From a virus, in the IMG/VR virus record IMGVR_UViG_3300027825_000010, positions 1 to 27,459 of that record: a DNA stretch of 27,459 nt, one strand, 5' to 3'. How positions within the stretch are numbered: the first letter of the stretch is position 1; the number at the start of each line of letters is the position of its first letter. The position numbers were made by a program, and so were the translations under genes. Of this stretch, positions 4,529 through 26,156 are shown in pieces. The notes beneath the pieces were generated by a model, which saw nothing but the letters and a program-made list of their open reading frames with translations, was not told the DNA's origin and did not search any database.

Positions 4529-5308
4529 TTAGCTCCCCACGAGGTTTCTTGTTGACGATATCGAGAAATTGATCGGCAAGGGACTGGACTGGGTCCCGTA
4601 ACTGGTTACCGAAGCCGCCACTGCGACCGATGTCGGATCGGGCATAGTGGTGGAAATCCCGGTTATATCCTTCAGCCTTTCCAGCAGGCTCAAGGTCTGG
4701 ACCGTGGCTTGAGCCGACTGTATATTTTTCAAACTCTGAAGAGCGTCCATTATCTGCATGGATATATCGTCGGAGGTCACTACCGTACCGAACTTCTTGC
4801 CAATGTAATCCCTGATCGCGCAAGTGAATTGCGGATAGAATGCACACCTGGATGTCAGTACGAACTTCAATACCTTCTGAACCAATTCGTCCGTATTCGT
4901 CACCCGTGAAAAGCTGCCAACGCCGCTGCCCGACAGCTTGAAGTCGTTGAGTTGCCCCGTGGCGCTGCACCTCAGGCAGTAAGGCTGCAAGGTGATGTAT
5001 TCCACCTCGATGAGGGGGATGAACCACCTGACAGGGAGATTGAACACGATCTTGCGGAACTGATCCTGGGTCAAAAGGCGATTCTCGTCCGCAACTATGG
5101 AATACCCGTAAACGGGGTCGTTCTGCTGGACTTCTTCGCCGCTTATCCTGACGATTACCTGCGAGAGCCCGTTGATCGGAGCCCTCATATTCAAAGCTGT
5201 GTCAGCCGCCAGATGGAGCGTCTTGAAATCAACGGTATCCACAATATACCGCTCCCCGGTAATCAGATGGGGACAGGGACCGCTCCGTGTGTTGAAATCG
5301 TAGCTCAT
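4529..5308 (-). CDS. Probable gp25-like baseplate wedge protein with a CxxC motif
   Basis: A 259-aa protein just upstream of the baseplate J gene, where tail gene order normally puts gp25. The C-terminal half carries a gp25/GPW-like pattern: DELVQKVLKFVLTSRCAFYP, then IRDYIGKKFGT, then a helical ISMQIMDALQSLKNIQ. Ahead of it is PYCLRCSATGQLNDF, which looks like half of a zinc ribbon; CPHL near residue 12 could supply another ligand. I start it at the ATG whose ATGA overlaps the HNH stop. The longer frame reaching 5374 would begin inside the HNH gene with no better ribosome site. No clear Shine-Dalgarno precedes 5308, so translation probably depends on coupling. The gp25 call rests on pattern and position and is moderate. 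Confidence 0.6.
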   Translation of the reverse strand: MSYDFNTRSGPCPHLITGERYIVDTVDFKTLHLAADTALNMRAPINGLSQVIVRISGEEVQQNDPVYGYSIVADENRLLTQDQFRKIVFNLPVRWFIPLIEVEYITLQPYCLRCSATGQLNDFKLSGSGVGSFSRVTNTDELVQKVLKFVLTSRCAFYPQFTCAIRDYIGKKFGTVVTSDDISMQIMDALQSLKNIQSAQATVQTLSLLERLKDITGISTTMPDPTSVAVAASVTSYGTQSSPLPINFSISSTRNLVGS

Positions 5309-5856
5309 GCTGTTGCTTTCAAAACTTTGGACTCTTCTCGCATTTGGCGAATGAGATTTCCAATGCAAAGCCATTCGTCATGAGAGAATTCCGCCCCTTT
5401 ACCTCGGTTACAACGGCGGCAACAAACCACTAAGTTATCCTTTTCATAACCTCGGCTGCAATCTTTTCTGTCAAGGTGGTATCCTTTGCCCCCCTTGCGC
5501 TTTACATCCTGAAATTTGTACCAGATTACATCTTCGCCGCAGTAGTAGCACAGATTTATATTTGTGAAATCTAAAAAATCTTCAAATGAGAGGTGGGACA
5601 ATTTCTTACGTTTAGCCACTGATAACATGTTGGTATACAAAAACTTATACGGAATTCCTCTTCTACTACACCCACAACTTTTAGTGCCTCTTCCACTCCT
5701 CCTTGAAAGACACCCTGCGGCAGTGGGAAGGTGTTCCGTGCCACAGTCGCAAGAACACTCCCATATGGCTCCCACCCGAGGAACTATCTTCAAAAGACGG
5801 TTCACTGTAAGCTTTCCAAATTTCAATCCCGTTAAATCGTTGATTTTCCCTCTCAT
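5305..5856 (-). CDS. HNH homing endonuclease, free-standing, nested between tail genes
   Basis: A 183-aa HNH nuclease that would cut DNA at an allele lacking it and spread by repair. The N-terminus has a GLKFGKLTV motif common in phage HNH proteins, then a Cys cluster (C34, C36, C38 and a later SCGC), probably zinc-binding. The nuclease core has CYYCGED, then YHLDRKD, DNLVVCCRRCNRGKG, giving the His/Asn residues and paired CxxC of a zinc-stabilised HNH fold. A GGGGGA Shine-Dalgarno lies about 10 nt before the ATG, inside the upstream gene. Both ends overlap the neighbours by ATGA, and CATGAG occurs at both boundaries. Base composition is visibly more AT-rich than in flanking genes, which supports recent insertion. 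Confidence 0.93.
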   Translation of the reverse strand: MRGKINDLTGLKFGKLTVNRLLKIVPRVGAIWECSCDCGTEHLPTAAGCLSRRSGRGTKSCGCSRRGIPYKFLYTNMLSVAKRKKLSHLSFEDFLDFTNINLCYYCGEDVIWYKFQDVKRKGGKGYHLDRKDCSRGYEKDNLVVCCRRCNRGKGAEFSHDEWLCIGNLIRQMREESKVLKATA

Positions 5857-6585: not shown

Positions 6586-9500
6586 CTAGCTGCGGACGAC
6601 GGTGATGGTAGCGATCTGTCCATTGACATAGGTAATCGTTCCAGATGTTATCGTCGTACCGCTCAAATAAGTCAAATGACCCGATAGAGACAGACTAAGA
6701 GCGAAAAGATAGGTGCCGCTCCCCGCAGGCGGGAATTGGACCACCGCCGTGTAGCCCGTCAGCCAACCAGCGAGTGCGCCGCTGCCGTAAGTCGGAGTGA
6801 TGCTCACGATTGAAGCGCCGTTGTTAATCGAAGCGAACACATTCACGGTGTTTCCCGTGCTGCTGGCGGTTCCCTGCTGCTGCGGAGACAGCGGTTTGTA
6901 GAATACTATGGCAACGCTGGAAGTAGACGGGACAGTGTAAGTCAGTGACAGCTTGGCGCTTGAAACCTGAAGTACTGCACCGGTACCTGGTTGCTGGGTG
7001 CATTGCAGATAAAAAGTGAAGCCGAATGCACTACTGTTTGCTTCGTTGGGAGTCACTCCGCTCAAAACGAAATCGAAGCGACCGGAACCAACCTGCACTC
7101 CGCTCTGTGCGGACGGCGGATGGGCGGTGCCGATCAAAGTAACACCGTTCTGGAAAGTCTCACTGCTACCGGCAGACTGCGAAACGACCAGAGACACCGT
7201 CGCGTTGGTGATGGTTGCGTTCGCCGGAATGCTGAACCCCATATTGGTCATGTTCAACGTGTGCGAAATGTGTGCGTTGCTGTTGTCGCTCCCGTAAAGG
7301 GTGATGGTATCGGACCCCCCGTTTTTGAGGTTTCCGAAAGAAACCCACCCGACAGAACCGGAAGTTACCTGAACGTCGGCTTCGGTCTGAGGCGTGGAGG
7401 GACCGACAGTGTGGATGAAGGTGTTGTTGGAGATACCAATTGAAGTCCCGGATACGGACACCGTCGGCATGACCATGTAAAGAAATGGGGTGACCAATTG
7501 TTGGCCGCCCTTGCCGGACCCGAAGCCGAACAAGTCGAAGGCTTCCGTGCCGGTACTTGGGTATGACAGATCGAACCACGCGATATCGAAATCGGTCAAA
7601 GTCAAGTCGGTGAGCGCCACGCCGGAAGGCAGCGCTCCACCGGCATAGGCATACTGGAAATTGGGATTGGCATAGCTGAAACTGACGATCCCGCTGGAAG
7701 CGCTGTTGTCGGCCGACAGGGAGAAATCCCCGGTCCCGTCGATATGGGCGGCCTGGGCCTTATCGACCGCAGCGCCGTTGTAGGTCTGGAAGTTGAAAGC
7801 CCCCGGAGCATTGTAGATGGGCAGACTCCCCGCAGTCCCTTCCAGGAGGGGCACGCCGTAAGCGGGGACGGTGCCCACCGTAGGACCGAGACTCAAAGCG
7901 CCGTTGGAATAGACGACCCAAGTGAACGTGGCGAAACCGACGATCCCCCCAACGTCCGTGACGGTTACGGGGAAGTTGTTAGACCCCAAGGTCCCGTTGG
8001 CGAACGGACCGCTGAGGACGATGAAAGCGGTATATCCGAGAGACGCTCCACCGCCTGTCACGCGCGTGAAGACAAAAGGAAAGGAGACCGAAAATCCTGC
8101 CGGGACGGTCACGCTCATCTGGCTGGGGTCGTTGGCGAGAAGATGGCTTGCTACGATGATAAACGAACGGTTCCAGCTGGAACCGATGGTGGTGACATCC
8201 CCGTTTCCGACGTAGCCTAGGATTCCCAAATTCAGGGAATTGACATAGTCAATTCCGGTGCTGAGAGTCAGCCCGGTATTGATCGTCAATATCGCTGGCG
8301 ACGGACCGTTAAACGCCTGGGTCGCCTTCGATCCGATACTGTCCTGAACCTGGACAGTGAAACTGAAGTTCCCAGTCTGATTGGTAGTTCCGCCCAAGAT
8401 TCCACCGGTGCTGACCGTGATCCCGGTCGGAAGGGTACCCGCAACCAAAGACCACGTATACGGAGGAACGCCGCCAGAAGCCTGCAAGGTCTTGGAGTAG
8501 GCAACCCCCGCCTCGCCTGACCCCAACGTGGTAGTGAAGATAATGAGTGTGCTGGAGGTGACTTGCATGGTGAAGAGGTGAGATGCCGTATCTGCCGGGC
8601 TCATGGCATCTACCACTTGAACGGTGAAGTTCCAGGTAGTTGCCACGCCGCCAGTTCCTTGCAGCAATCCGCCGCTGCTCAAGGAGAACGGGAACCCTGG
8701 CGGAGGAGAAGGAATCGACCACGTATAGACAGGGGTGCCGCCTGACGGGTCGCCGCCGCCCGTAGCCGTAAGTTGGATGGGGGTGATAGCAACCCCAACG
8801 GTTGCCGTAGGCAACCCGAAATAGCCCGGAAACGGCGGAGGGTTGATGGCCAGGTTCGTCGTGGCGGTGATGGTCACGATGGCGGTGGCCAAATGCCCCG
8901 CTTGGTCAATCGTTTGGACGGTGAAAGAAGGCTGCGCACCGGCTGCGCCTGCGAAGACGCCCGTAATCTTAGCAGTGGTGCCGTAGTCCGAGACGCTGGC
9001 GGTCAATGAGAGCCCGGACGGGAGAGAACCCAAAATCACGGACCAACTCACCAAGTTTGAAGGTCCTGGAGTCGAAGGATCGGAAACCGACAAAGTCCCC
9101 AAGTAGGGAACTCCCCTCAGTAGATCGCCGACCCCGGCCGTGCTGATGGTCATGCCCGCGACAATTCCTACAGTGACGGCGAGGCTTTTGTTGGCTGTGT
9201 TCAACAAGGAATCAGTGACGATAAAATTCACGGATTGAGTGCCATAGCCTGCTTGTGCAGTGGTGCCTGAGATGAGACCGGAACTGTCGATTGTGATCCC
9301 GGTCGGCAACGATGCCGATACGTTGGTCCAAGCATAAGGAGCGAGACCGCCAGTAGCCGTCATCTGGAACGAGTACGGTACGTTGATGGTGATGGGGGGA
9401 ATGGATATGGTGGCGACCAGCAATGTGCTGAAAACATGGACGACTATTTGCCTTGTGGTCACCGATCCGACGCTGTCCGTGAGGGTGAATGTGATGGTAG

Positions 9501-12384
9501 CGCTCTGTCCCTCCAGACCAGCGGCAGGCGGAACGGTGCCGGACAGGACTCCGGTACTGGGATTGAGGGTGATATAGGCTACGAGAGCGGGAAAGCTCGT
9601 CGCCATATCACTGGTCCACGTATAGGCCGGGACGCCGCCGTACCCCTGCAATGTCGTAGAGTAGGCTTGATTGACGATGATGTTCGGCAACGATGCGGTG
9701 AGGATGAGCGCCGGTGTACTGTAAGTTACGGCAAGGCGTTGATAGATGTAGCCCGTAGCTCCGGTAGTGGTGGTCACCGCTATCCAGACATCGAAATACC
9801 CGGCTTCCGTGGGGGCTCCGCTCCAAGTGACGGTGCTTCCGGTGGCGGAAAGGATCGTACCGGCCGGAAGATGACCACGATAGACACTGGCTGAGGCCAG
9901 GTTGGTTGCCTGAGAGGAGATTGTAACGGCGAAAGACCTGTTGATGGGCACCGAAGCAAAGGTGCCTTGAAGAGGTACTGCATTACTGACGGTGTCCCAG
10001 AAAACTGTCACGGTCCCGTGGACGACGTTGTAAGCGTCTATGTACTCGAAAACACTGGTATTGCCCCCGGACAAAGTCCCGAAGGTCGCAGTAAGATTCC
10101 CGTAAACCAACCCAGAGATTTGATCGAGAGACAGACCGGAGGGGAGCGAAGAACCGGATTGCACCCTGACGGTGTAGGGAGAATTGAACACCTGAGGAGA
10201 ATTGAAATAAGGTCTCCTGGGGTCGAGTCCGATGAAATTTCCCACGATGTAAGGTCCGGTGTAGGTTGATACCGTCCCGATGTCCGAGGTACCGCTGTGC
10301 GTGATGAGCGAGAACTCCTGAACGATGGTGGCTACCGTGGCGGTTCCGTTGGTGAGCGGGATATGTACCCGAGCCTCGATGTTGTTATAAGGGGCGCTTG
10401 GCGGACCGACGACTGTCACCTTGGGTCCAGAAGGATCGACTGTCACAACGAGACCGTTGGAGCGGGAAAAATCGGACTGAACCAGAAGGTTGTTCTGATT
10501 GATGAGGAATCCCCCCAAAGGTCCCGTTATCGAGAACGATGAAGACGTACCGTCGCCGCTGCCCCAAATGTGGTCGAAAGCGGCATGGGTCACAAGGATG
10601 TTGCTGATCTCCTTGTTCACATTGTAGTAAAAAGTCTGAGTGATTAAGCCAGCGGCGATATCGTTCACGGTGATGGTGAAACTGTGCGTGCCCTCATGAC
10701 CGGAAGGAACTGCGATCTGAAGTTCGAATTTACCGTTATCCAGTTGATTGTAGTTGTCACCGTTGGGATTCAGGGCGTATGTACCATCGTCTGTAAAACT
10801 GAAAAGCGTGTAAGGAGGAGTACCCCCGAGAACGGGAACCTCAAGACGAAAATCCTGTCCTGCAAAAATCGTCGGTTGAACGAGAAAACCTAATTGGAGA
10901 GCGGCACGAGATAAAGTAAACTGAAAAGTTGCCGAAGCCAGTGCGCCGACAGCATCCTGAACTTGAATGGTGACGGAGAACGGGTTGACATAATCCGTGG
11001 TGTTGTAAGAGCAGGGAATTCCCGAAATCACCCCCGTGCTTGGATTCAGAACCAACCCAATCGGCAGAGTGCCGCTCTGAATGGACCACGTGAAGGGGAG
11101 CAGTCCCCCCGAATTTTTGACCGTGGTGGTATACGGTGTCAGGACCGTAGCTCCGGGAAGGGATGTCGAGGTGATTGCCAAGTTTGTCAGGACGGTATAG
11201 CTGAACGTCTGCTGCGCTATGAACGGGGTCGGCGTGCTGGAATCCATAACCGAGATGTTCACCGTGAAGGTGCCCAACTGGGTAGGGGTTCCGCTTATCG
11301 TACCGTCAATGGACATCCTCAAGCCGGGCGGCAAACCGGTAGCAAACCAGCTAAACGGACCGTTGGAAGCCGGACCGGCAGTCATGAACTGGAAGTATTC
11401 CTGCGGAATACCGATGAAGGAATTCGAGGGCATGCTGGTCGTCGTAATGCTCGTCGGGGAGGCGGACGAGGACGATCCGGGGACGATCCCCAACGGCGTG
11501 AGGGGTTCGGTGGCCTGCGGACGACCCATTACGGGGAATACGTCCAGAGCCATAGTCCCGAGCAAAGAGCTTGCGTTGGAGAATCGACTCGTAGCGACTA
11601 GGAGCTTGAGTTCGTTCGTGATCGTGTCACGGACAAGGTTGCGGACGATGACTTCGTAAGGGGCGGCCTGGACGGAAGAGGTTGTGTTGTTGACGATCTC
11701 GAATCCCTGTTCGCCTGCCACGCCAAGCGTGCCGGTTATGGAGGTCTGGGGAGCCGTGGTGAACTGCTGGTTAATCACGAAAACGGAAAAGCTGAAGGAT
11801 CGCGTCAACTTGACGGCGGGGGCGGCGTTCGTGAAATTGGCGAACACCTGGACGACGATGTTCTGCTGGCCCGGAGCGGTGAAAATCTTGGTCGTAGTCC
11901 GGCTGGTCAAAGGCAGGGGACCCGACGTGGTTCCATCTTGATAAAGGACTTGCCAACCGCTGGCAATGGAGCCGTCATAGCTTCCGCTGAGGGTGATAGT
12001 CAGGGTTTGCCCGAGCGACAGGGTCGTGTTGTCGAACGAAACCAGGGTGCTCGTGAGAGCGTGAGGGAATTCGTGGGGATTGTTGAAATGGGGACTGTTG
12101 AGAAATTGACCGAGGTCCGAAGAAAGTCCCTGCATGTCAAGGGTGTAGTCCCCCGACGTAAGCTGCTGGTCAAAAGACGGGCTGCTGACGGTGCCGCCGA
12201 AAGCCGTGCCCGTGGTGAAGTACGTCACGGGAGTGTTGCCGGGAGGTGTGGCAACGAAGAGATTCCACCCCGAATAAATGGAGTAGTTCCCATTGACATC
12301 GAACGGGGTCCAATTCACCGTCAAAAGGTAATTTTGGTCGATGTTTGCGACTGTCGGTGCTGCTTGAAGTGCTGGTGTGCTCAT
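6586..12384 (-). CDS. Giant tail fibre/adhesin with an array of Ig-like domains
   Basis: A 1932-aa, Ser/Thr/Gly-rich, all-beta protein. From about residue 320 to 1370 it holds roughly eight tandem units of the He_PIG/putative-Ig type. Each unit shows a GGxxPYTWS strand, a LPxGLxL...GxISGT turn and a final FTVxVxDS strand, for example GLLPFTWSIQSGTLPIGL and GVPPYTWSLVAGTLPTGI. Such arrays act as extended surface-binding stalks in phage virions and bacterial adhesins. The C-terminal 550 residues are a different beta-rich region with jelly-roll-like strands (ITNATVSLVVSQSAG, later LQVSSAKLSLTYTV) that may bind the receptor. It starts at ATG 12 bp after the 1258-aa gene, with an AGGA site upstream. 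Fibre or spike is inferred from architecture and context. Confidence 0.72.
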   Translation of the reverse strand: MSTPALQAAPTVANIDQNYLLTVNWTPFDVNGNYSIYSGWNLFVATPPGNTPVTYFTTGTAFGGTVSSPSFDQQLTSGDYTLDMQGLSSDLGQFLNSPHFNNPHEFPHALTSTLVSFDNTTLSLGQTLTITLSGSYDGSIASGWQVLYQDGTTSGPLPLTSRTTTKIFTAPGQQNIVVQVFANFTNAAPAVKLTRSFSFSVFVINQQFTTAPQTSITGTLGVAGEQGFEIVNNTTSSVQAAPYEVIVRNLVRDTITNELKLLVATSRFSNASSLLGTMALDVFPVMGRPQATEPLTPLGIVPGSSSSASPTSITTTSMPSNSFIGIPQEYFQFMTAGPASNGPFSWFATGLPPGLRMSIDGTISGTPTQLGTFTVNISVMDSSTPTPFIAQQTFSYTVLTNLAITSTSLPGATVLTPYTTTVKNSGGLLPFTWSIQSGTLPIGLVLNPSTGVISGIPCSYNTTDYVNPFSVTIQVQDAVGALASATFQFTLSRAALQLGFLVQPTIFAGQDFRLEVPVLGGTPPYTLFSFTDDGTYALNPNGDNYNQLDNGKFELQIAVPSGHEGTHSFTITVNDIAAGLITQTFYYNVNKEISNILVTHAAFDHIWGSGDGTSSSFSITGPLGGFLINQNNLLVQSDFSRSNGLVVTVDPSGPKVTVVGPPSAPYNNIEARVHIPLTNGTATVATIVQEFSLITHSGTSDIGTVSTYTGPYIVGNFIGLDPRRPYFNSPQVFNSPYTVRVQSGSSLPSGLSLDQISGLVYGNLTATFGTLSGGNTSVFEYIDAYNVVHGTVTVFWDTVSNAVPLQGTFASVPINRSFAVTISSQATNLASASVYRGHLPAGTILSATGSTVTWSGAPTEAGYFDVWIAVTTTTGATGYIYQRLAVTYSTPALILTASLPNIIVNQAYSTTLQGYGGVPAYTWTSDMATSFPALVAYITLNPSTGVLSGTVPPAAGLEGQSATITFTLTDSVGSVTTRQIVVHVFSTLLVATISIPPITINVPYSFQMTATGGLAPYAWTNVSASLPTGITIDSSGLISGTTAQAGYGTQSVNFIVTDSLLNTANKSLAVTVGIVAGMTISTAGVGDLLRGVPYLGTLSVSDPSTPGPSNLVSWSVILGSLPSGLSLTASVSDYGTTAKITGVFAGAAGAQPSFTVQTIDQAGHLATAIVTITATTNLAINPPPFPGYFGLPTATVGVAITPIQLTATGGGDPSGGTPVYTWSIPSPPPGFPFSLSSGGLLQGTGGVATTWNFTVQVVDAMSPADTASHLFTMQVTSSTLIIFTTTLGSGEAGVAYSKTLQASGGVPPYTWSLVAGTLPTGITVSTGGILGGTTNQTGNFSFTVQVQDSIGSKATQAFNGPSPAILTINTGLTLSTGIDYVNSLNLGILGYVGNGDVTTIGSSWNRSFIIVASHLLANDPSQMSVTVPAGFSVSFPFVFTRVTGGGASLGYTAFIVLSGPFANGTLGSNNFPVTVTDVGGIVGFATFTWVVYSNGALSLGPTVGTVPAYGVPLLEGTAGSLPIYNAPGAFNFQTYNGAAVDKAQAAHIDGTGDFSLSADNSASSGIVSFSYANPNFQYAYAGGALPSGVALTDLTLTDFDIAWFDLSYPSTGTEAFDLFGFGSGKGGQQLVTPFLYMVMPTVSVSGTSIGISNNTFIHTVGPSTPQTEADVQVTSGSVGWVSFGNLKNGGSDTITLYGSDNSNAHISHTLNMTNMGFSIPANATITNATVSLVVSQSAGSSETFQNGVTLIGTAHPPSAQSGVQVGSGRFDFVLSGVTPNEANSSAFGFTFYLQCTQQPGTGAVLQVSSAKLSLTYTVPSTSSVAIVFYKPLSPQQQGTASSTGNTVNVFASINNGASIVSITPTYGSGALAGWLTGYTAVVQFPPAGSGTYLFALSLSLSGHLTYLSGTTITSGTITYVNGQIATITVVRS

Positions 12385-17621: not shown

Positions 17622-18181
17622 CGCCCTTCCTTTCTCAAGGCATCCCACACTTTCTCATACTCGCCTTTGACCTTCGGGTCCACCGGGTAGTCTCTCGGCG
17701 GACGGTTGGCTTTGATGAGTTCCACCACGTCGCCGAGGTCCTTGGCCCTGCCAATCGGACTCCCCATATAACTGGACAGCTTCACGGACAAGAGTTCAGG
17801 AAGCTCCAGGAACACCGGCTCCGAGGACACGACGGTCGGGACCGGCAGGCTCATGGGACCCGGACCCTGGTTGGAGCCGCCCTCCATGAGATCGATAGGG
17901 ACCCTTGTCTTTTTGTCGGTCACTGTCATCTTCGATCCCTGGTTCCTCCTGAAGAGACCGCTCTGCGTCAGCCGCCAGATGGCGTCATTGACGTTCGGGA
18001 CGACGATGTCCACATCCGAGGTCATCCGGGCGTATCCCCGCTCCTGGACGGCAAATCCGCCGCAGACGTAATGGGGAATGTCCCAAGTTTCGAGAATGAG
18101 GACCGCCCTCTTGAGGGCGATCTCCAGGAAGGTGGTTGCGGTGACCTTTCGTAAAAACTCCGCTTTAAGGTTGAAGATCAT
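17618..18181 (-). CDS. Nucleotidyltransferase-fold protein (minimal NTase type)
   Basis: A 187-aa protein with the signature of the DNA polymerase beta/NTase fold: CGGFAVQERG at 40-49, then SDVDIVVP at 55-62, where D56 and D58 would bind metal, and a probable third acidic residue in VPIDLMEGG near 97. Length and pattern fit the minimal or AbiEii-like nucleotidyltransferase group, whose members attach nucleotides to proteins, drugs or tRNA. The substrate here is unknown. It overlaps the CCA-adding enzyme gene upstream by ATGA and the 93-aa gene downstream by ATGA, so the three are translationally coupled. It could be a tRNA-acting partner of the CCA enzyme, an antidefence protein or a host-directed toxin. 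Confidence 0.78.
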   Translation of the reverse strand: MIFNLKAEFLRKVTATTFLEIALKRAVLILETWDIPHYVCGGFAVQERGYARMTSDVDIVVPNVNDAIWRLTQSGLFRRNQGSKMTVTDKKTRVPIDLMEGGSNQGPGPMSLPVPTVVSSEPVFLELPELLSVKLSSYMGSPIGRAKDLGDVVELIKANRPPRDYPVDPKVKGEYEKVWDALRKEGR

Positions 18182-19608
18182 TCGCCTGCCCCTGAATGCT
18201 CGTGGCTCGTCTTGAGCATCTGCAAGACGCCCGCCCTGGTGATGTAATCCCCGTTAAGCTGCCTGTTCTCGATGTCTTCCAGGATTGACCTGAAGTTCTT
18301 CCCCGGCTTCATGCCGATGGCGATGAGATCGTCCCCGGTAATCAGCCGCTCGGGATTGATATCGGCGATGGTGAGACTCCGCAGGTATCTGAGAAGCACG
18401 TCTACGCATGCCCCGGAGGAGTTGGCTCCGTCCCGAGTCCATCCTAATCGAGCGTCTTGCTCCGCCACGGTCAGTCCGCTGTAAGCCCCCGGCGTGCGCA
18501 TCAGGCGCTTCAGCCGAGGGATTTCCCTGTTCGGACTCGACGGTCCGAATTTAAGGGCGTGACCCAGGACCGCTTCCTTTACGTTTAACGCCCCCGCGAT
18601 ATCAGCGGTCTGATCATTTGAGAGCTTGAGTTGAAAACATGCGTCTTTGACAAATCGCAAATCGTTGTTAGACAATAACATAGCCATCCCGAGGAGAGGA
18701 TCGCTGACGGGAAAGGCCTGGAATCGGCGAATCACGTTGGCTACCCCTGTCTTGACTTCCTTCACGAATGGAAGATAGTCGATCAGTCCGGTCTGGATCA
18801 AAGGAGCCAAACCTTCTGTCGGATGCGGGCTGGACACGATCTTGAGAAGTTCGATGGCAATACGCTCGGCCGACACTTGTTGGATGCGTGGGGCGTTGAT
18901 TGCAATGGCCTTCCAGGTATCGGGAGCGATGTCGAACCCAAGCTGGGCAGCGAAACGACATGCCCGGAGCATGCGCAGGGCATCCTCGGAGAATCGGGCA
19001 TTGGGGTCGCCGATGCAGCGGATGGTCTTTCCCTTGAGGTCTTCGTAGCCTTCCACGTGGTCAACGATCCCATAAGTCACTGAATCATCAAAGTCCTGGA
19101 CGGTATAGCGGATGTCCGCCCCCTTGAGGGCTTCCTCGTATTCCGCCACGGTGTAGGCATCAGTGGTGTCGCCCACGCACAGGAGACCGTTGATCGTGAA
19201 GTCGCGGCGGGATACGTCTTCCTCGGCCGAGTCGGAATAAGAGACGGAATCCGGGTGACGCCCGTCCGCATATTCGCCGTCGCTGCGGAAAGTGGCCACT
19301 TCGATGTTGTGGTTCTCGATGTGAACCTCACGAAAATGAGAATCGGTTTTTCCTTCGAAAACGGCGGGTGAATCCTCCGTAACCACGTATTCGACCACTA
19401 CCGTGATGACGCCGAATGACGCCCCTACCGGCACGGTCTTGGGGAACAATCCCTGGACCTGCTCCGGGCGGGCATTGGTGGTGACATCGAAATCCTTCGG
19501 CTCCCGTCCGAGCAAAAGATCGCGGACGCAGCCGCCGACGAGAAACGCCTGGAAGCCCCCGTCATGCAGGGTTTTGAGAACCGACATTGCCGCTTCTTTT
19601 TGAGTCAT
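18178..19608 (-). CDS. tRNA nucleotidyltransferase (CCA-adding enzyme), class II
   Basis: Adds or repairs the 3'-terminal CCA of tRNAs. The class II motifs are complete: LVGGCVRDLLLG (23-34), DFDVTTNA (39-46, metal-binding D39 and D41), IEVATFRSDGEYADGRHPD, RRDFTINGL, and the neck/nucleotide-selecting segment RFSEDALRMLRACRFAAQLGF, followed by ERIAIELLKI. At 476 aa it is somewhat longer than a compact bacterial CCA enzyme; an insert between the strands (YVVTEDSPAVFEGKTDSHF) accounts for part of that. A poly(A) polymerase of the same superfamily cannot be excluded from sequence alone. The ATG overlaps the acidic gene's stop and its own stop overlaps the next NTase gene. CCA enzymes are known from huge phages that carry many tRNAs; no tRNA gene is in this window. 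Confidence 0.92.
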   Translation of the reverse strand: MTQKEAAMSVLKTLHDGGFQAFLVGGCVRDLLLGREPKDFDVTTNARPEQVQGLFPKTVPVGASFGVITVVVEYVVTEDSPAVFEGKTDSHFREVHIENHNIEVATFRSDGEYADGRHPDSVSYSDSAEEDVSRRDFTINGLLCVGDTTDAYTVAEYEEALKGADIRYTVQDFDDSVTYGIVDHVEGYEDLKGKTIRCIGDPNARFSEDALRMLRACRFAAQLGFDIAPDTWKAIAINAPRIQQVSAERIAIELLKIVSSPHPTEGLAPLIQTGLIDYLPFVKEVKTGVANVIRRFQAFPVSDPLLGMAMLLSNNDLRFVKDACFQLKLSNDQTADIAGALNVKEAVLGHALKFGPSSPNREIPRLKRLMRTPGAYSGLTVAEQDARLGWTRDGANSSGACVDVLLRYLRSLTIADINPERLITGDDLIAIGMKPGKNFRSILEDIENRQLNGDYITRAGVLQMLKTSHEHSGAGE

Positions 19609-19985
19609 TGTATCCCCAAACGTCTTCGAACGACGCGAGCGAGGTGGGACTCCTCTTGAGTTTCCTCATCGTCATCGTCCTCGTCTTCTTCACCATTCCA
19701 CCCTTCCCCTTCCGACTCGTCCTCTTCCTCAGGAAGAATGGTCAGCGCACTGGTTTTCACGTTGAAGTCAATGCGCTCGCGGATTTCAAGGTCCAGCCGA
19801 ACCAATAACTCATTCAGCTTTCGGCAATCCTTATGCTTCAAGTCCTCGTCGTCCGAGAGATGATCCCAGTTCTCGTCGTCAATGACATTGTGCAGACAGC
19901 AGCCGCCCGAGTTCCGCTTGTAGATGCTCTTGAACAGGGGTTGTGCCAGCTTGACGAACTCTTCTTCCGAAATATACTCTCTCAT
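19605..19985 (-). CDS. Unrecognised 126-aa acidic protein
   Basis: No family recognised. The N-terminal two thirds look globular and helical, with paired cysteines (GGCCLHNV) and HKDC that could bind metal. Near residues 88-113 comes a run almost entirely of Asp, Glu and Gly, followed by a basic tail (ARVVRRRLGIQ). Such acidic segments occur in nucleic-acid mimics and chaperone-like proteins, but also in disordered linkers, so I draw no functional conclusion. It overlaps the YkgJ-like gene upstream and the CCA-enzyme gene downstream by ATGA at both ends, which places it firmly in the coupled chain. Confidence 0.75.
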   Translation of the reverse strand: MREYISEEEFVKLAQPLFKSIYKRNSGGCCLHNVIDDENWDHLSDDEDLKHKDCRKLNELLVRLDLEIRERIDFNVKTSALTILPEEEDESEGEGWNGEEDEDDDDEETQEESHLARVVRRRLGIQ

Positions 19986-20251
19986 CGGTTCTCCTCGACT
20001 TGCAAGAAAATAAGACAGTTGAATATCCGGCAGGCAAGTGGTCTGTTTTCATGAATCGAACATCGGTCATCCCTGAGAAAAATGCAGGCTCGGTCCGAAC
20101 CGAAGGGGATAACCCACTTGCCGGGCTCGTGCTCGACTGCCGCTTCCTTGAAAAACTCTGGACCTTCCAGCAAGCAGACGGCGAACTCGTTCCCCGTGAA
20201 GCCCTTCTTGCAGCAGGCTCCGGTGCAGCTTGCGCAGGGAGCAGGTGTCAC
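19982..20251 (-). CDS. CxxCxxCC (YkgJ/UPF0153-like) putative zinc- or iron-chelating protein
   Basis: An 89-aa protein with the family signature: CASCTGACC at residues 6-14, then CIFLRDDRCSIHENRPLACRIFNC toward the C-terminus, giving eight conserved-type cysteines. The family is thought to chelate zinc or iron; its biochemical role is not known. The start is GTG at 20251: it forms a GTGA overlap with the stop of the upstream zinc-ribbon gene and follows GAAGGA. The same frame stays open to 20479, but that part is only the shadow of the upstream gene. A paralogue lies at 23356-23706 with the same order of cysteines. Confidence 0.82.
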   Translation of the reverse strand: MTPAPCASCTGACCKKGFTGNEFAVCLLEGPEFFKEAAVEHEPGKWVIPFGSDRACIFLRDDRCSIHENRPLACRIFNCLIFLQVEENR

Positions 20252-20694
20252 TGGCTTTCCTTCACGAAGACCTTCGCCTTTTCCAAGGTCTTGCGAGCCT
20301 CGGCTATGTTGTAGCGAAGACTGAAGTTGTCGAGTTTCTTCGTGAGCAAAAGCTGATCCATATGATAGTTGAATACGGAACTGTAGACCATGAGTGCCCC
20401 GCTTTTGATCTTTCCGGCAGCTACCAGGACATCGAGGGCGTCGTCGGTCGTCTTCCATTCGTCCCTGATCTTCCCCCAAGCCTCGACCGCACGGTGATGG
20501 TTCGTGCCACGGCGGCGGGTCAGGCGAGGAGTCTCATGACGGCAGTTCGTGCAACGCCAGATGGGGACGAATTCATTCTTCTCGTTCCGGCCGTATTCCG
20601 CTTCGTAGATGGTGTTGCCGCAGTTTACGTGTCCGCCACCAGCCCATTCCCGATCATAACCTGGACATTCGACTTTGCGAATTACCGTAACCAT
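20248..20694 (-). CDS. Zinc-ribbon protein, 148 aa, function unknown
   Basis: The N-terminal half holds a probable four-cysteine zinc ribbon: C10 (VECPGYD), C25 (HVNCGN) and CTNC near 48-51, followed by a basic RLTRRRGTNHH stretch. The C-terminal half is helical and charged. Zinc ribbons of this size in phages often bind nucleic acid or act as transcription-associated factors, but nothing here proves it. A GGGAGG site lies 8 nt before the ATG. It is the first gene of the overlapping chain that ends near 17211; a candidate -10 (TATACT) sits directly upstream. Confidence 0.78.
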   Translation of the reverse strand: MVTVIRKVECPGYDREWAGGGHVNCGNTIYEAEYGRNEKNEFVPIWRCTNCRHETPRLTRRRGTNHHRAVEAWGKIRDEWKTTDDALDVLVAAGKIKSGALMVYSSVFNYHMDQLLLTKKLDNFSLRYNIAEARKTLEKAKVFVKESQ

Positions 20695-21236: not shown

Positions 21237-21557
21237 CTATTTGGCGTCGGATTTGGTGTCGTCAGGCTTGTTGTTGTCGCCCTGGTCGGGATCGCCGTTC
21301 TTTTTGGTCATATAGCGGGCGACACCGTTGACACCGTGCCCGGCGGCCAGGACCCCGAGAATGGTGGGGTAGCTGGGGTCGGTCCGGCCGGTCGTCAAGA
21401 ACGCCTTGGCATAGATCACGGTGTGGGCGATCATGATGGCGCTGGTAACGAGGGCTGTGAGCAGGAACACGAGGCGGGAATTGACATCCGGCTCTTTAAG
21501 GCAACGCTCGAAAGTGGTTTTGCCGTAAGCGAAAAGTCCTTTTATCTTGTCAAACAT
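21237..21557 (-). CDS. Two-helix membrane protein, holin candidate
   Basis: A 106-aa protein with two hydrophobic segments, near residues 28-52 (RLVFLLTALVTSAIMIAHTV and on) and 63-83 (YPTILGVLAAGHGVNGVARY), between a mixed-charge N-terminus and a strongly charged, disordered C-terminal tail (KKNGDPDQGDNNKPDDTKSD). Size and layout fit a class II-type holin, which the signal-less lysozyme would need. Against this, it is on the opposite strand 4 kb from the lysozyme and directly behind the AAA+ gene, so another membrane role is possible. The ATG follows GGGGGTG by a few bases; 20 bp separate it from the AAA+ gene. Confidence 0.72.
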   Translation of the reverse strand: MFDKIKGLFAYGKTTFERCLKEPDVNSRLVFLLTALVTSAIMIAHTVIYAKAFLTTGRTDPSYPTILGVLAAGHGVNGVARYMTKKNGDPDQGDNNKPDDTKSDAK

Positions 21558-21577: not shown

Positions 21578-22690
21578 TTAGGATGTCTGATTTTTCGCAA
21601 GAGCGGAAATTGCGGTCGTAGCGGGGTCAACCGGAATCACGTCTTCCTTTTTCAGGACCCCTTCTTCCACCCTGGTAAAGGAGAAGCTTTCCCCGAATTC
21701 ATCGACCAGCACATGGTCTCCCATCTTGATCTGCTCCGTGATGAGCAGCCGGGACAGGCTATGCACGATGTGCTTCTCGATGGCACGTTTCAGGGGTCTG
21801 GCACCGTATTTCTTGTCCGTCCCCTTGCTCAAGAGAGACAACTTGGCCTCTTTGGTGAAGCTGAGAATAAAGGGCTTGCCGTTTCTGGATTTGAGGACCC
21901 TCGCCTGTATCCGATTGATTTCGATGTCCACCACTTTTTGAAGCTGTTCGTCGTTGAGACTGTGGAAAACGATCACGTCGTCCAGACGGTTGATGAACTC
22001 CGGGTTCATCCTTTTCCGCAGGGCGGCGTTGACCGCAGTGTCCATCCCCTTTTCTATATTGCCTTCGGTCTCTTCGATTGCCCCGGCAAAGCCCATCTTG
22101 TTTTGAGTCATCTTTTCGATTTCTTGGGCTCCCAGGTTGCCGGTCATCACGATGATGCACTTGTCGAAACTGACTCGTTCGCCGGTCCCCATCGTCGCAG
22201 CGCCCTTGTCCATGATCCCCAAAAGGAGGTTCCAAAGAGCGTCGTTGGCTTTCTCGAACTCGTCCAGGAGAAGCAGGGTCAGCTTCAGTTTGTCGGTATG
22301 GCATCTGTTCAGGTTGTCCTCGGCGAAATACGCCTTCGTCTCCCGGTGGCCAAGATAGCCAGGAGGACTTCCGACGAGCTTGGCGATCTCGTGGCTGTGC
22401 TGGAATTCCGAGCAGTCCACCTTCAGCAGGGCACCGGTGGTGCCGAAGAGCGCTTCGGACATGACTTCCACCGAGAGAGTCTTGCCGCTGCCGGTGGGAC
22501 CGAGGAAAACAAGGTTGGATATGGGGCGGGTGGGGTCGTTCAAACCTGATTGGTAAATTTCGTATGCTTTGACGAGGGCGGCGATGGCTTTCTCTTGACC
22601 CACGATGCGCTCGTGGAGAATGTCTTCCAGTTCGTTCTCATCGTTGTTCTTGATCATGGGGTCAAGAAGCTTCGGTTTCTTGAGTGACAT
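21578..22690 (-). CDS. ClpC/ClpA second-domain-like AAA+ unfoldase, single ring, with ClpP-loop-like MGF
   Basis: A 370-aa AAA+ ATPase of the Hsp100 family. Visible motifs: GPTGSGKT Walker A (64-71), pore loop PPGYLGH with Y112, LLLLDEFEKA Walker B (D143, E144), sensor-1 TGNLG (N185), arginine finger in PEFINRLD (R235) and sensor-2 GARPLKRAI (R298). From NPEFINRLDDVIVFHSL to the C-terminus it reads like the second ATPase domain of ClpC. There is no N-domain, first ring or middle domain. MGF at 199-201 occupies the place of the ClpA IGL / ClpC VGF tripeptide that docks on ClpP; ClpB lacks it. I start at ATG 22690, seven bases after GGGGAG, instead of the extension to 22756. No ClpP is encoded nearby, so the likely partner, if any, is the host's. 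Confidence 0.9.
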   Translation of the reverse strand: MSLKKPKLLDPMIKNNDENELEDILHERIVGQEKAIAALVKAYEIYQSGLNDPTRPISNLVFLGPTGSGKTLSVEVMSEALFGTTGALLKVDCSEFQHSHEIAKLVGSPPGYLGHRETKAYFAEDNLNRCHTDKLKLTLLLLDEFEKANDALWNLLLGIMDKGAATMGTGERVSFDKCIIVMTGNLGAQEIEKMTQNKMGFAGAIEETEGNIEKGMDTAVNAALRKRMNPEFINRLDDVIVFHSLNDEQLQKVVDIEINRIQARVLKSRNGKPFILSFTKEAKLSLLSKGTDKKYGARPLKRAIEKHIVHSLSRLLITEQIKMGDHVLVDEFGESFSFTRVEEGVLKKEDVIPVDPATTAISALAKNQTS

Positions 22691-22733: not shown

Positions 22734-23327
22734 TTACGAGGTGCTGATGAAGGCAAGCTCCTCTTGCATGTTTTCTCTTGCCTTAATGGCCAATGAGGAC
22801 TCGAATTCCGGGCGGAAGTACAGGGGGTTCTTGGTCAGGAGGTACCTTAAGGCAGCGGAACGACCTAGAAACCACGCCGACTCCCCTATAAAAGCCCACT
22901 CTTCCCTGAGAGCGGCGGCATAGGACAGGTACGAATCTTTGTCCTGGCCAAGAACGGCGATGCGCATGTCGCCGATTGTAGAGGAAGGGGGGGATGACGG
23001 TCGGCAGCCGACGATGAGGAAAGTCACATACCTCTCGGCGTCCTCGAAGGAAAAACCCAATGCGGCGGCATCCCTGAGGAAGGCCACTGCGGATGCTTCC
23101 TCGCTGCCGAGTTCGTAGGAGTGGTAAAGCCATGCAGCGAGAGCATCACGTTGCGGGAGCATCCCGAGAAGACGTTCGTGCTCCTTCAAGCCAAGTCTCA
23201 GGTATTTTAGATTGTGCCATTTGCGGGTCGGATCATTGTATTTTTTCAAGGCTGATTCGACAGGAGACAGCCTAGCGCCGTTTTCGGCGACGAGACCCGA
23301 GATCAGGACATCCATGAGAAAGCCCAT
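22734..23327 (-). CDS. Unrecognised 197-aa protein
   Basis: No family recognised. It is predicted to be mostly helical and soluble, with Leu/Ala-rich amphipathic stretches (REEWAFIGESAWFLGRSAALRYLL) that resemble helical-repeat proteins. It stands between the second YkgJ-like gene and the AAA+ unfoldase on the same strand, 43 bp upstream of the unfoldase start, so it could be an adaptor or substrate of that enzyme; this is only positional inference. Neither ATG (23327 or 23315) has a good ribosome site; an in-frame TAA just upstream limits the start to one of them. Confidence 0.7.
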   Translation of the reverse strand: MGFLMDVLISGLVAENGARLSPVESALKKYNDPTRKWHNLKYLRLGLKEHERLLGMLPQRDALAAWLYHSYELGSEEASAVAFLRDAAALGFSFEDAERYVTFLIVGCRPSSPPSSTIGDMRIAVLGQDKDSYLSYAAALREEWAFIGESAWFLGRSAALRYLLTKNPLYFRPEFESSLAIKARENMQEELAFISTS

Positions 23328-23355: not shown

Positions 23356-23706
23356 TCAAGCGAGGGTGATTTGCACCAGTTCGAGAACTTCCGGCTGGTG
23401 TTTCAGAAAATCCGAATGATCTCCCGGACCCGACAGGTTGTATCCGACAAGACAATTGAACAGGCTGCAACGGTCGGGACGGTCCTGGTAGATCGAACAG
23501 AGGTTGTTTTTCAGGTAGATGCAGTTCCCGTCAGTGTCGAAAGGGAGAGCGGGTCCGTGTTGCGTTTCGACCTTCGCATTCTTGAATCTGCCGGACGCTT
23601 CTTTTTCGGACAGGAACACGGCGAAATCCACTCCTGCCCTGTACTTCCTGCAACAGGCTCCGGTGCAGGCGCTACACGGAGGGGCAATGATCCACTTGTT
23701 CTTCAT
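23356..23706 (-). CDS. Second CxxCxxCC (YkgJ-like) putative metal-chelating protein
   Basis: A 116-aa protein with CSACTGACC near residues 11-19, then CIYLKNNLCSIYQDRPDRCSLFNCL. The cysteine order and several intervening residues match the 89-aa protein at 19982-20251 (shared CTGACC, FAV, PF, CI.L, CSI, RP, FNCL), so the two are paralogues. This copy has a C-terminal extension (HSDFLKHQPEVLELVQITLA) the other lacks. I chose ATG 23706; a TTG at 23721 is also possible, and neither has a strong ribosome site. It begins 24 bp after the 457-aa virion protein gene. The metal and role are unknown. Confidence 0.82.
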   Translation of the reverse strand: MKNKWIIAPPCSACTGACCRKYRAGVDFAVFLSEKEASGRFKNAKVETQHGPALPFDTDGNCIYLKNNLCSIYQDRPDRCSLFNCLVGYNLSGPGDHSDFLKHQPEVLELVQITLA

Positions 23707-23730
23707 AACCCATAAATACAAAGAAAAGGG

Positions 23731-25113: not shown

Positions 25114-26112
25114 CTATTGAGGGTTTGCTAGACTGTTTTTGACCACCAGACGGGACAATCTCTTGCACTCCAGGCAGTAATTTTTGGAATCCCTGCCGCA
25201 GATGTTCTTGTCATGCCCGTGCTTGCAGAATCCGTCTTTCCCGTAGGGGGAAGCCCCGGCAAGCCTTCGCTTGGCTGCCATATGGAGTCTGGCACATTCG
25301 TTGCATCGACCGTGACCTGACGTGCCGATCCTTCCGCAGATGTCCGTATCGTGCCCGTTCAGGCAGAATCGCTTTCGAAGTTGGGGAAGAAGCCTCCCCT
25401 TATGGGCGAGAGACATCTTGGCCTTGGTCTCGTCCGAGGCTTTGCTGCCGGTTTTGGCAAGCGATATCTTGGCTCGGGACTCGTCAGAAATCGAGTGTCC
25501 CATGAGGGAGGCGGAAATCCTTTCGGCCAAATCTGACCCTTCATAACGTTTCTGAAGGGCGGCGGAAGCCATGGCTCGATATTCGGGGTCCTGCCAATTC
25601 TCCTTGCGGGACTCAGAAAGTCTGGCTTTGGTTTCGTCGGATACTTCGTGTCCTTCTTCCCACCTGAAACCCAGATTGCCTCCGGTCTGCTCCCGCAACT
25701 GGTAGTTTTCCCTGATTTTGGCTACCGTGGCATCCCTGAATTCGGGCTCCTGCCATTGTTCCTTGTGGGCGGAGGACATTTTCTGACGGACTCCCTCAGG
25801 ATGAGTTCCCGAAAATCCTTCTCCTCCCCGGCATATGTTGTAGCCAAATTCAGAGTCCTGGGCTCTCAAGAACTTGATGAAGTCTCGCTCTGTCTGGTCT
25901 AATTCTTCTCTGGTTTGGATGTCGGAACGGAGAGCATGGATGGACCAGACATAAGGAAGGTGCTTTTTCATTGAGTTGTAGAGATGGGAACTACCCTTAT
26001 AGTACCTTGCCTGGGATAATTTCTTCTGTAAGTATCGGCGCAGGTCAGCCCCCTTATGCTGTCCTACGTAATACTTCCCGGTCTCGCGGTTGACAATCAG
26101 ATAGATGAACAT
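25114..26112 (-). CDS. GIY-YIG homing endonuclease with NUMOD3 repeats and two Cys/His knuckles
   Basis: A 332-aa mobile endonuclease. The nuclease domain is N-terminal: FIY (2-4), YVG (15-17), and SEFGYNICRGGEG near 92-104. Next come NUMOD3-type DNA-binding helices in repeated form (SDETKARLSESRKENW, SDESRAKISLAKTG, SDETKAKMSLAHKG). The C-terminus has two tandem zinc-knuckle units, each C-x2-GHD-x2-ICGR followed by CxxC (CLNGHDTDICGR...CNEC and CKHGHDKNICGR...CLEC). I start at ATG 26112, five bases after GGAGG; a GTG at 26124 overlaps that site. It separates two related virion genes and ends 9 bp before the next start. It looks intact and well adapted in composition. A paralogue begins at position 99. 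Confidence 0.93.
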   Translation of the reverse strand: MFIYLIVNRETGKYYVGQHKGADLRRYLQKKLSQARYYKGSSHLYNSMKKHLPYVWSIHALRSDIQTREELDQTERDFIKFLRAQDSEFGYNICRGGEGFSGTHPEGVRQKMSSAHKEQWQEPEFRDATVAKIRENYQLREQTGGNLGFRWEEGHEVSDETKARLSESRKENWQDPEYRAMASAALQKRYEGSDLAERISASLMGHSISDESRAKISLAKTGSKASDETKAKMSLAHKGRLLPQLRKRFCLNGHDTDICGRIGTSGHGRCNECARLHMAAKRRLAGASPYGKDGFCKHGHDKNICGRDSKNYCLECKRLSRLVVKNSLANPQ

Positions 26113-26156
26113 TTGAACCTCCACTCATAAATACTGTAGATAGTTCAAATTGTCCA
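26113..26156 (-). repeat. Leader of the complete GIY-YIG gene, copy B of the shared upstream element
   Basis: On minus this reads CAGTATTTATGAGTGGAGGTTC up to the ATG, the same blocks as at 100-149 but without the intervening 25 nt. TGGACA at 26156-26151 and TATTTA at 26133-26128 are 17 bp apart and could form a weak promoter; this pair is not conserved in copy A. The rest of the gap to 26219 is AT-rich with no clear terminator. Confidence 0.45.

Follow-up and report, generated by a model that had tools for sequence, protein, structure and literature searches.

ClpX consists of a single AAA+ ring that docks on ClpP through an xGF loop, and Skd3 (human CLPB), an ankyrin-repeat mitochondrial disaggregase, also has an architecture with one D2-type ring. 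Direct experimental support for the role of such loops comes from ClpE, whose VGF loop makes contact with the ClpP pocket; the interaction is abolished when VGF is replaced by GGR (PMC13125188). The phage Clp unfoldases described in the open-licence literature that we found are ClpA-like, ClpB-like or ClpX-like, and no description of a phage-encoded single-ring ClpC-type unfoldase was found there. The phage ClpA-like ATPases (phrog_4871; PA5oct, XaC1 and Phosso) are two-ring proteins of 739 to 792 aa, and those of PA5oct, XaC1 and Phosso keep an IGF or VGF loop.

The stretch of DNA analysed here (the window) covers all 27,459 bases of an IMG/VR virus record (IMGVR_UViG_3300027825_000010), which is classed as linear and is probably a fragment of a phage. 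Its phage character is supported by a virion structural protein (phrog_1645, E 3.3e-98), a lysozyme gene and a weaker tail-protein match. A CxxCxxCC gene, a 197-aa gene, an ATPase gene and a 106-aa gene form a tight same-strand run with gaps of 20 to 43 bases, as follows:

21578..22690, minus strand: gene of a single-ring ClpC-D2-like AAA+ unfoldase, 370 aa (AAA_2 and D2-small, MGF at residues 199-201)
22088..22096, minus strand: codons of M199-G200-F201, the predicted ClpP-docking tripeptide (position calculated from the 370-aa frame)
22734..23327, minus strand: 197-aa protein, degenerate relative of the HD phosphohydrolase family, upstream of the ATPase
21237..21557, minus strand: 106-aa small protein with hydrophobic segments (probably transmembrane, judged by eye), 20 bases downstream of the ATPase
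23356..23721, minus strand: 121-aa CxxCxxCC protein (PF03692, by Pfam)

The unfoldase frame is read from 22690 to 21578 on the minus strand, a strand that an earlier note on this DNA did not give, and yields 370 aa from the ATG at 22690. A purine-rich, Shine-Dalgarno-like AAGGGGAG lies just 5′ of this ATG; an alternative TTG start at 22756, which would give 392 aa, is less likely.

The only full Pfam domains in the 370-aa protein are AAA_2 (residues 55-238) and ClpB_D2-small (245-329), and Pfam found no Clp N-domain, D1, middle domain or ClpX zinc finger in it, in agreement with the earlier note, which had described a protein with neither N-domain, first ring nor middle domain. The complete AAA+ motifs reported in that note were all identified and are conserved: Walker A (G64-PTGSGK-T71), the pore loop (G111-YL-G114), Walker B (D143-E144), sensor 1 (N185), the arginine finger (R235) and sensor 2 (R298), with M199-G200-F201 situated, as had been proposed, between N185 and R235. 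Across a 33-row phage alignment, the key motor-motif residues, G200 and F201 are invariant or nearly so, and M199 is not.

ClpC is the best match of the protein in both sequence and fold. Among PDB sequences, D2 domains of ClpC score best (220.7 bits), and the top Foldseek matches of the AlphaFold model (pLDDT 89.6, pTM 0.86) are ClpC chains in ClpC-ClpP assemblies. Like ClpC of S. aureus, B. subtilis and M. tuberculosis (ClpC/ClpC1), the window protein has a D2 AAA+ domain, D2-small, a pore loop, an arginine finger and an xGF ClpP loop, but it lacks the N-domain, the D1 ring and the middle domain, belongs to a separate clade and bears EFQHSHE and GSPPGYLGHRET signatures. With 370 aa and AAA_2 plus D2-small, it does not have the two-ring architecture of ClpA and ClpC (HSP100 class 1), and the full-length Clp models of NCBIfam match it over their last ~300 positions, far below cut-off. 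The other described systems are more distant: phrog_4871 is the best PHROG match, over the C-terminal part of that family only; ClpX differs by a zinc-binding domain that the window protein lacks and by a score of 48.9 bits, where the ClpX cut-off is 359; and Skd3 is a weaker match, at ~104 bits.

Single-ring relatives were gathered from viral contigs and bacterial genomes, and 151 non-identical single-ring rows (the window, 50 phage and 100 bacterial) were aligned with 15 two-ring references. In a maximum-likelihood tree of 101 single-ring rows and the 15 references, a fully supported branch separates the two sets, hence the single-ring rows do not group with the D2 of ClpA or ClpC but lie on the opposite side of that branch. 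Judged by this alignment and tree, the 370-aa protein falls in a clade that is distinct from the two-ring proteins ClpA, ClpB and ClpC. The clade is characterized by a D2 ring alone, the EFQHSHE and GSPPGYLGHRET signatures, a conserved N-terminal LD and an invariant G200, all of which are found in the window protein. Phage rows are interspersed among bacterial ones, and the window protein clusters with those of the phage loci L139 and L140; the tree is a quick one with long branches, in which 44 of the 113 inner forks are weak and fine details are unsure.

Among the matches listed (at least 596 candidate stretches), the bacterial members are nearly all Acidobacteriota, and a strict DNA pattern for EFQHSHEI was present in at least 33 of 297 sampled genomes from the phylum of one acidobacterial member. 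The genomes of bacteria carrying the single-ring gene also hold ClpC and ClpB. Some of them have two single-ring copies in tandem, as in genomes G039 and G040 (L163, L166, L167 and L168), and such copies might form mixed rings. A tblastn search of INPHARED returned no close member (the best match reaches ~38% identity and 217 bits, whereas the best bacterial member scores 378 bits), and the seven INPHARED phage matches with measured ORFs are of two-ring size, 657 to 792 aa. In BFVD, distant matches of single-ring size (356 and 488 aa, 22-30% identity) come from uncultured phages.

An intein-like insertion interrupts the single-ring ATPase in L033 and L047 (8291-10777) and in L049 (8261-10837). 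It begins with CF just before the Ser of GSPPGYLGH, at window residue 108, and ends with HN before SPPGYLGH in L033 and with SN in L049, and it is absent from L140, a close relative.

The earlier note had held that ClpP docking would be refuted if MGF were not conserved among close homologues, and GF or GY is retained in all 151 single-ring rows: G200 is G in 151/151, followed by F in 148 rows and by Y in three. Position 199 varies among L, M, I, F, Y and V, apart from T in two bacterial rows. Most loop positions that flank GF have entropies of 2 to 3 bits and the length of the loop differs among members, and within the phage rows G200 is conserved as highly as any column. Since G and F/Y are each found in 151/151 rows despite a median pairwise identity of 45% among the phage rows, the conservation of GF/GY in this alignment is far beyond chance. 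Control paralogues were drawn mostly from five of the same bacterial genomes, plus E. coli; the E. coli genes kept their annotation, and the others were labelled by length and motif. An [IVLF]G[FL] loop is present in the ClpC-like and ClpA-like control rows and the ClpP loop is absent altogether from the ClpB-like rows, bearing out the statement that the site of the loop is shared by ClpA and ClpC and missing in ClpB. Every single-ring relative carries a GF or GY loop, which sets the family apart from ClpB/Hsp104, and the xG[FL] loop between sensor 1 and the arginine finger is of the type seen in ClpP-partner unfoldases. In the AlphaFold model, MGF sits at a helix end and adjoins a low-confidence stretch between two helices (201-210, mean pLDDT 56). 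Because of the low confidence of this adjoining loop, the tripeptide is predicted to lie beside a flexible segment and is probably exposed.

The sequence data thus make it probable that the gene encodes a minimal, ClpC-D2-like unfoldase that is a partner of ClpP, and docking of the single-ring protein on ClpP is likely. Such a minimal unfoldase keeping the docking loop is what the earlier note had put forward, and the proposal has gained from the conservation, the within-genome controls, the structure model and the co-occurrence with ClpP in two relatives. Six copies would form one ring of ClpC-D2 type, the GYLG pore loops would grip substrates, and ATP would drive their pulling through the ring. 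The MGF loops would dock the ring on the ClpP barrel by entering its hydrophobic pockets, and phages that do not encode clpP would use the ClpP of the host. A one-ring ClpC-type protein whose ClpP hook is invariant, shared by phages and by bacteria that have a full ClpC as well, would be a minimal natural ClpP motor. If this is true, it gives phages a route to steer protein degradation during infection, and what a Clp motor needs beyond D2 becomes directly testable.

The GF loop could also serve another partner or the stability of the ring, in a remodelling ATPase that acts independently of ClpP, for example in virion or tail assembly or in the late clearing of protein complexes. The virion structural, tail-like and lysozyme genes within the same 27 kb would suit such a role, and jumbo-phage ClpA and ClpX have been proposed to be translocases or assembly aids (PMC7824862). 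This reading also draws on the distribution of ClpP: most related phage records have no detectable ClpP (a clear one in 2 of 53, all records being possible fragments). A further point against docking on ClpP is that no clpP link is visible in the neighbourhoods of the bacterial single-ring genes. A clpP operon was dropped for these genes, whose frequent neighbours, judged by eye from their sequences, resemble an M48-type peptidase and a branched-chain aminotransferase. However, the D2 domains of ClpB-type disaggregases, which act without ClpP, lack the loop, whereas the single-ring proteins of phages, and of bacteria with ClpC and ClpB in their genomes, keep an invariant GF, and we regard ClpP-independent remodelling as unlikely.

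As the earlier note had observed, no ClpP is encoded in the 27,459-base window, but this is a linear 27-kb fragment and the missing clpP cannot be read as missing from the phage. A ClpP-family match was found in seven of the 53 related phage records searched, all of them possible fragments. In two of these records, G027 and G021, the match is a full-length ClpP in which a Ser-His-Asp triad is apparent; they are the only two of the 53 with a clear ClpP, and thus combine the single-ring gene with a true ClpP. The clpP and ATPase genes of G027 share a strand, with clpP ~3.5 kb upstream. AAA_2 matched no gene other than the single-ring one in G027 and G021, so that no second Clp-type ATPase was detected in either, and the same holds for eight other tested records of 140-456 kb; in one of these, G025, an intein-like insertion splits the match to the single ORF into two pieces. 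Terminase large subunit genes were identified in G027 and G021 by PHROG scans of individual proteins, whereas searching the related records with Pfam for terminase and tail sheath gave no matches. The pairing of ATPase and ClpP is a co-occurrence in two records and not a statistical association.

In the remaining five records the matches to the ClpP family are weaker or partial (E 1e-13 to 1e-24), of a kind that prohead proteases might give. They suggest a further reading, in which the partner is a phage-encoded, ClpP-like head-maturation protease and the ring acts in capsid processing. Against it, the five matches are scattered, none being shown to adjoin the ATPase, and the protein in the other two records is an ordinary ClpP. 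In addition, we know of no prohead protease that needs an unfoldase, and a head-maturation partner appears very improbable. For the preferred reading, docking on ClpP, it follows from the related phages that bring their own ClpP, and from the bacteria that carry the same family, that the single-ring family is not a phage invention for hijacking.

The earlier note had also suggested that the neighbouring proteins could be adaptors. The 197-aa protein does recur close to the ATPase within one group of phages, but the CxxCxxCC protein is near the ATPase in none of the relatives examined and was dropped as a likely adaptor for that reason. Homologues of the 197-aa protein occur upstream of the ATPase, at ~1 kb or less in L140, L143 and L035 and at 1.7-2.7 kb in L002, L005, L007, L033, L040 and L046 (centre to centre). 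The L002 homologue matches phrog_19425, ‘phosphohydrolase’ (E 1.8e-26). A YHDAVY or YHDSVY segment is intact in most homologues and reads YHSY in the window and YHAA in L140 and L033; given this replacement, the window copy is probably no longer active as an HD hydrolase. The predicted structure of the 197-aa protein is of low confidence (pLDDT 67.8), and its weak top Foldseek match is an HD hydrolase (E 0.44). Because this degenerate HD-hydrolase relative keeps its place close to the ATPase in that group of phages, a functional link between the two is possible; an adaptor role is a guess. It is doubtful, on the whole, that an unnamed one-ring ClpC-type family of Acidobacteriota and large phages constitutes a bare ClpP-docking motor to which, in one lineage, a co-encoded HD-fold pseudoenzyme adaptor delivers the substrates. 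Downstream of the ATPase, homologues of the 106-aa protein are found in L140, L033 and L005, and other members have different small hydrophobic proteins near the ATPase.

Several other genes of the window are worth recording. A second CxxCxxCC (PF03692) protein is encoded at 19982-20479, so that this 27-kb phage fragment holds two, with the one at 23356-23721. A 476-aa protein of the tRNA nucleotidyltransferase/poly(A) polymerase family (18178-19608) has homologues near the ATPase in L140, L141 and L143. Homing endonuclease-like genes (GIY-YIG/NUMOD3 and HNH) are located amid structural genes at 25114-26124 and 5305-5856, and a 1932-aa protein (6586-12384) contains nine He_PIG Ig-like stretches.
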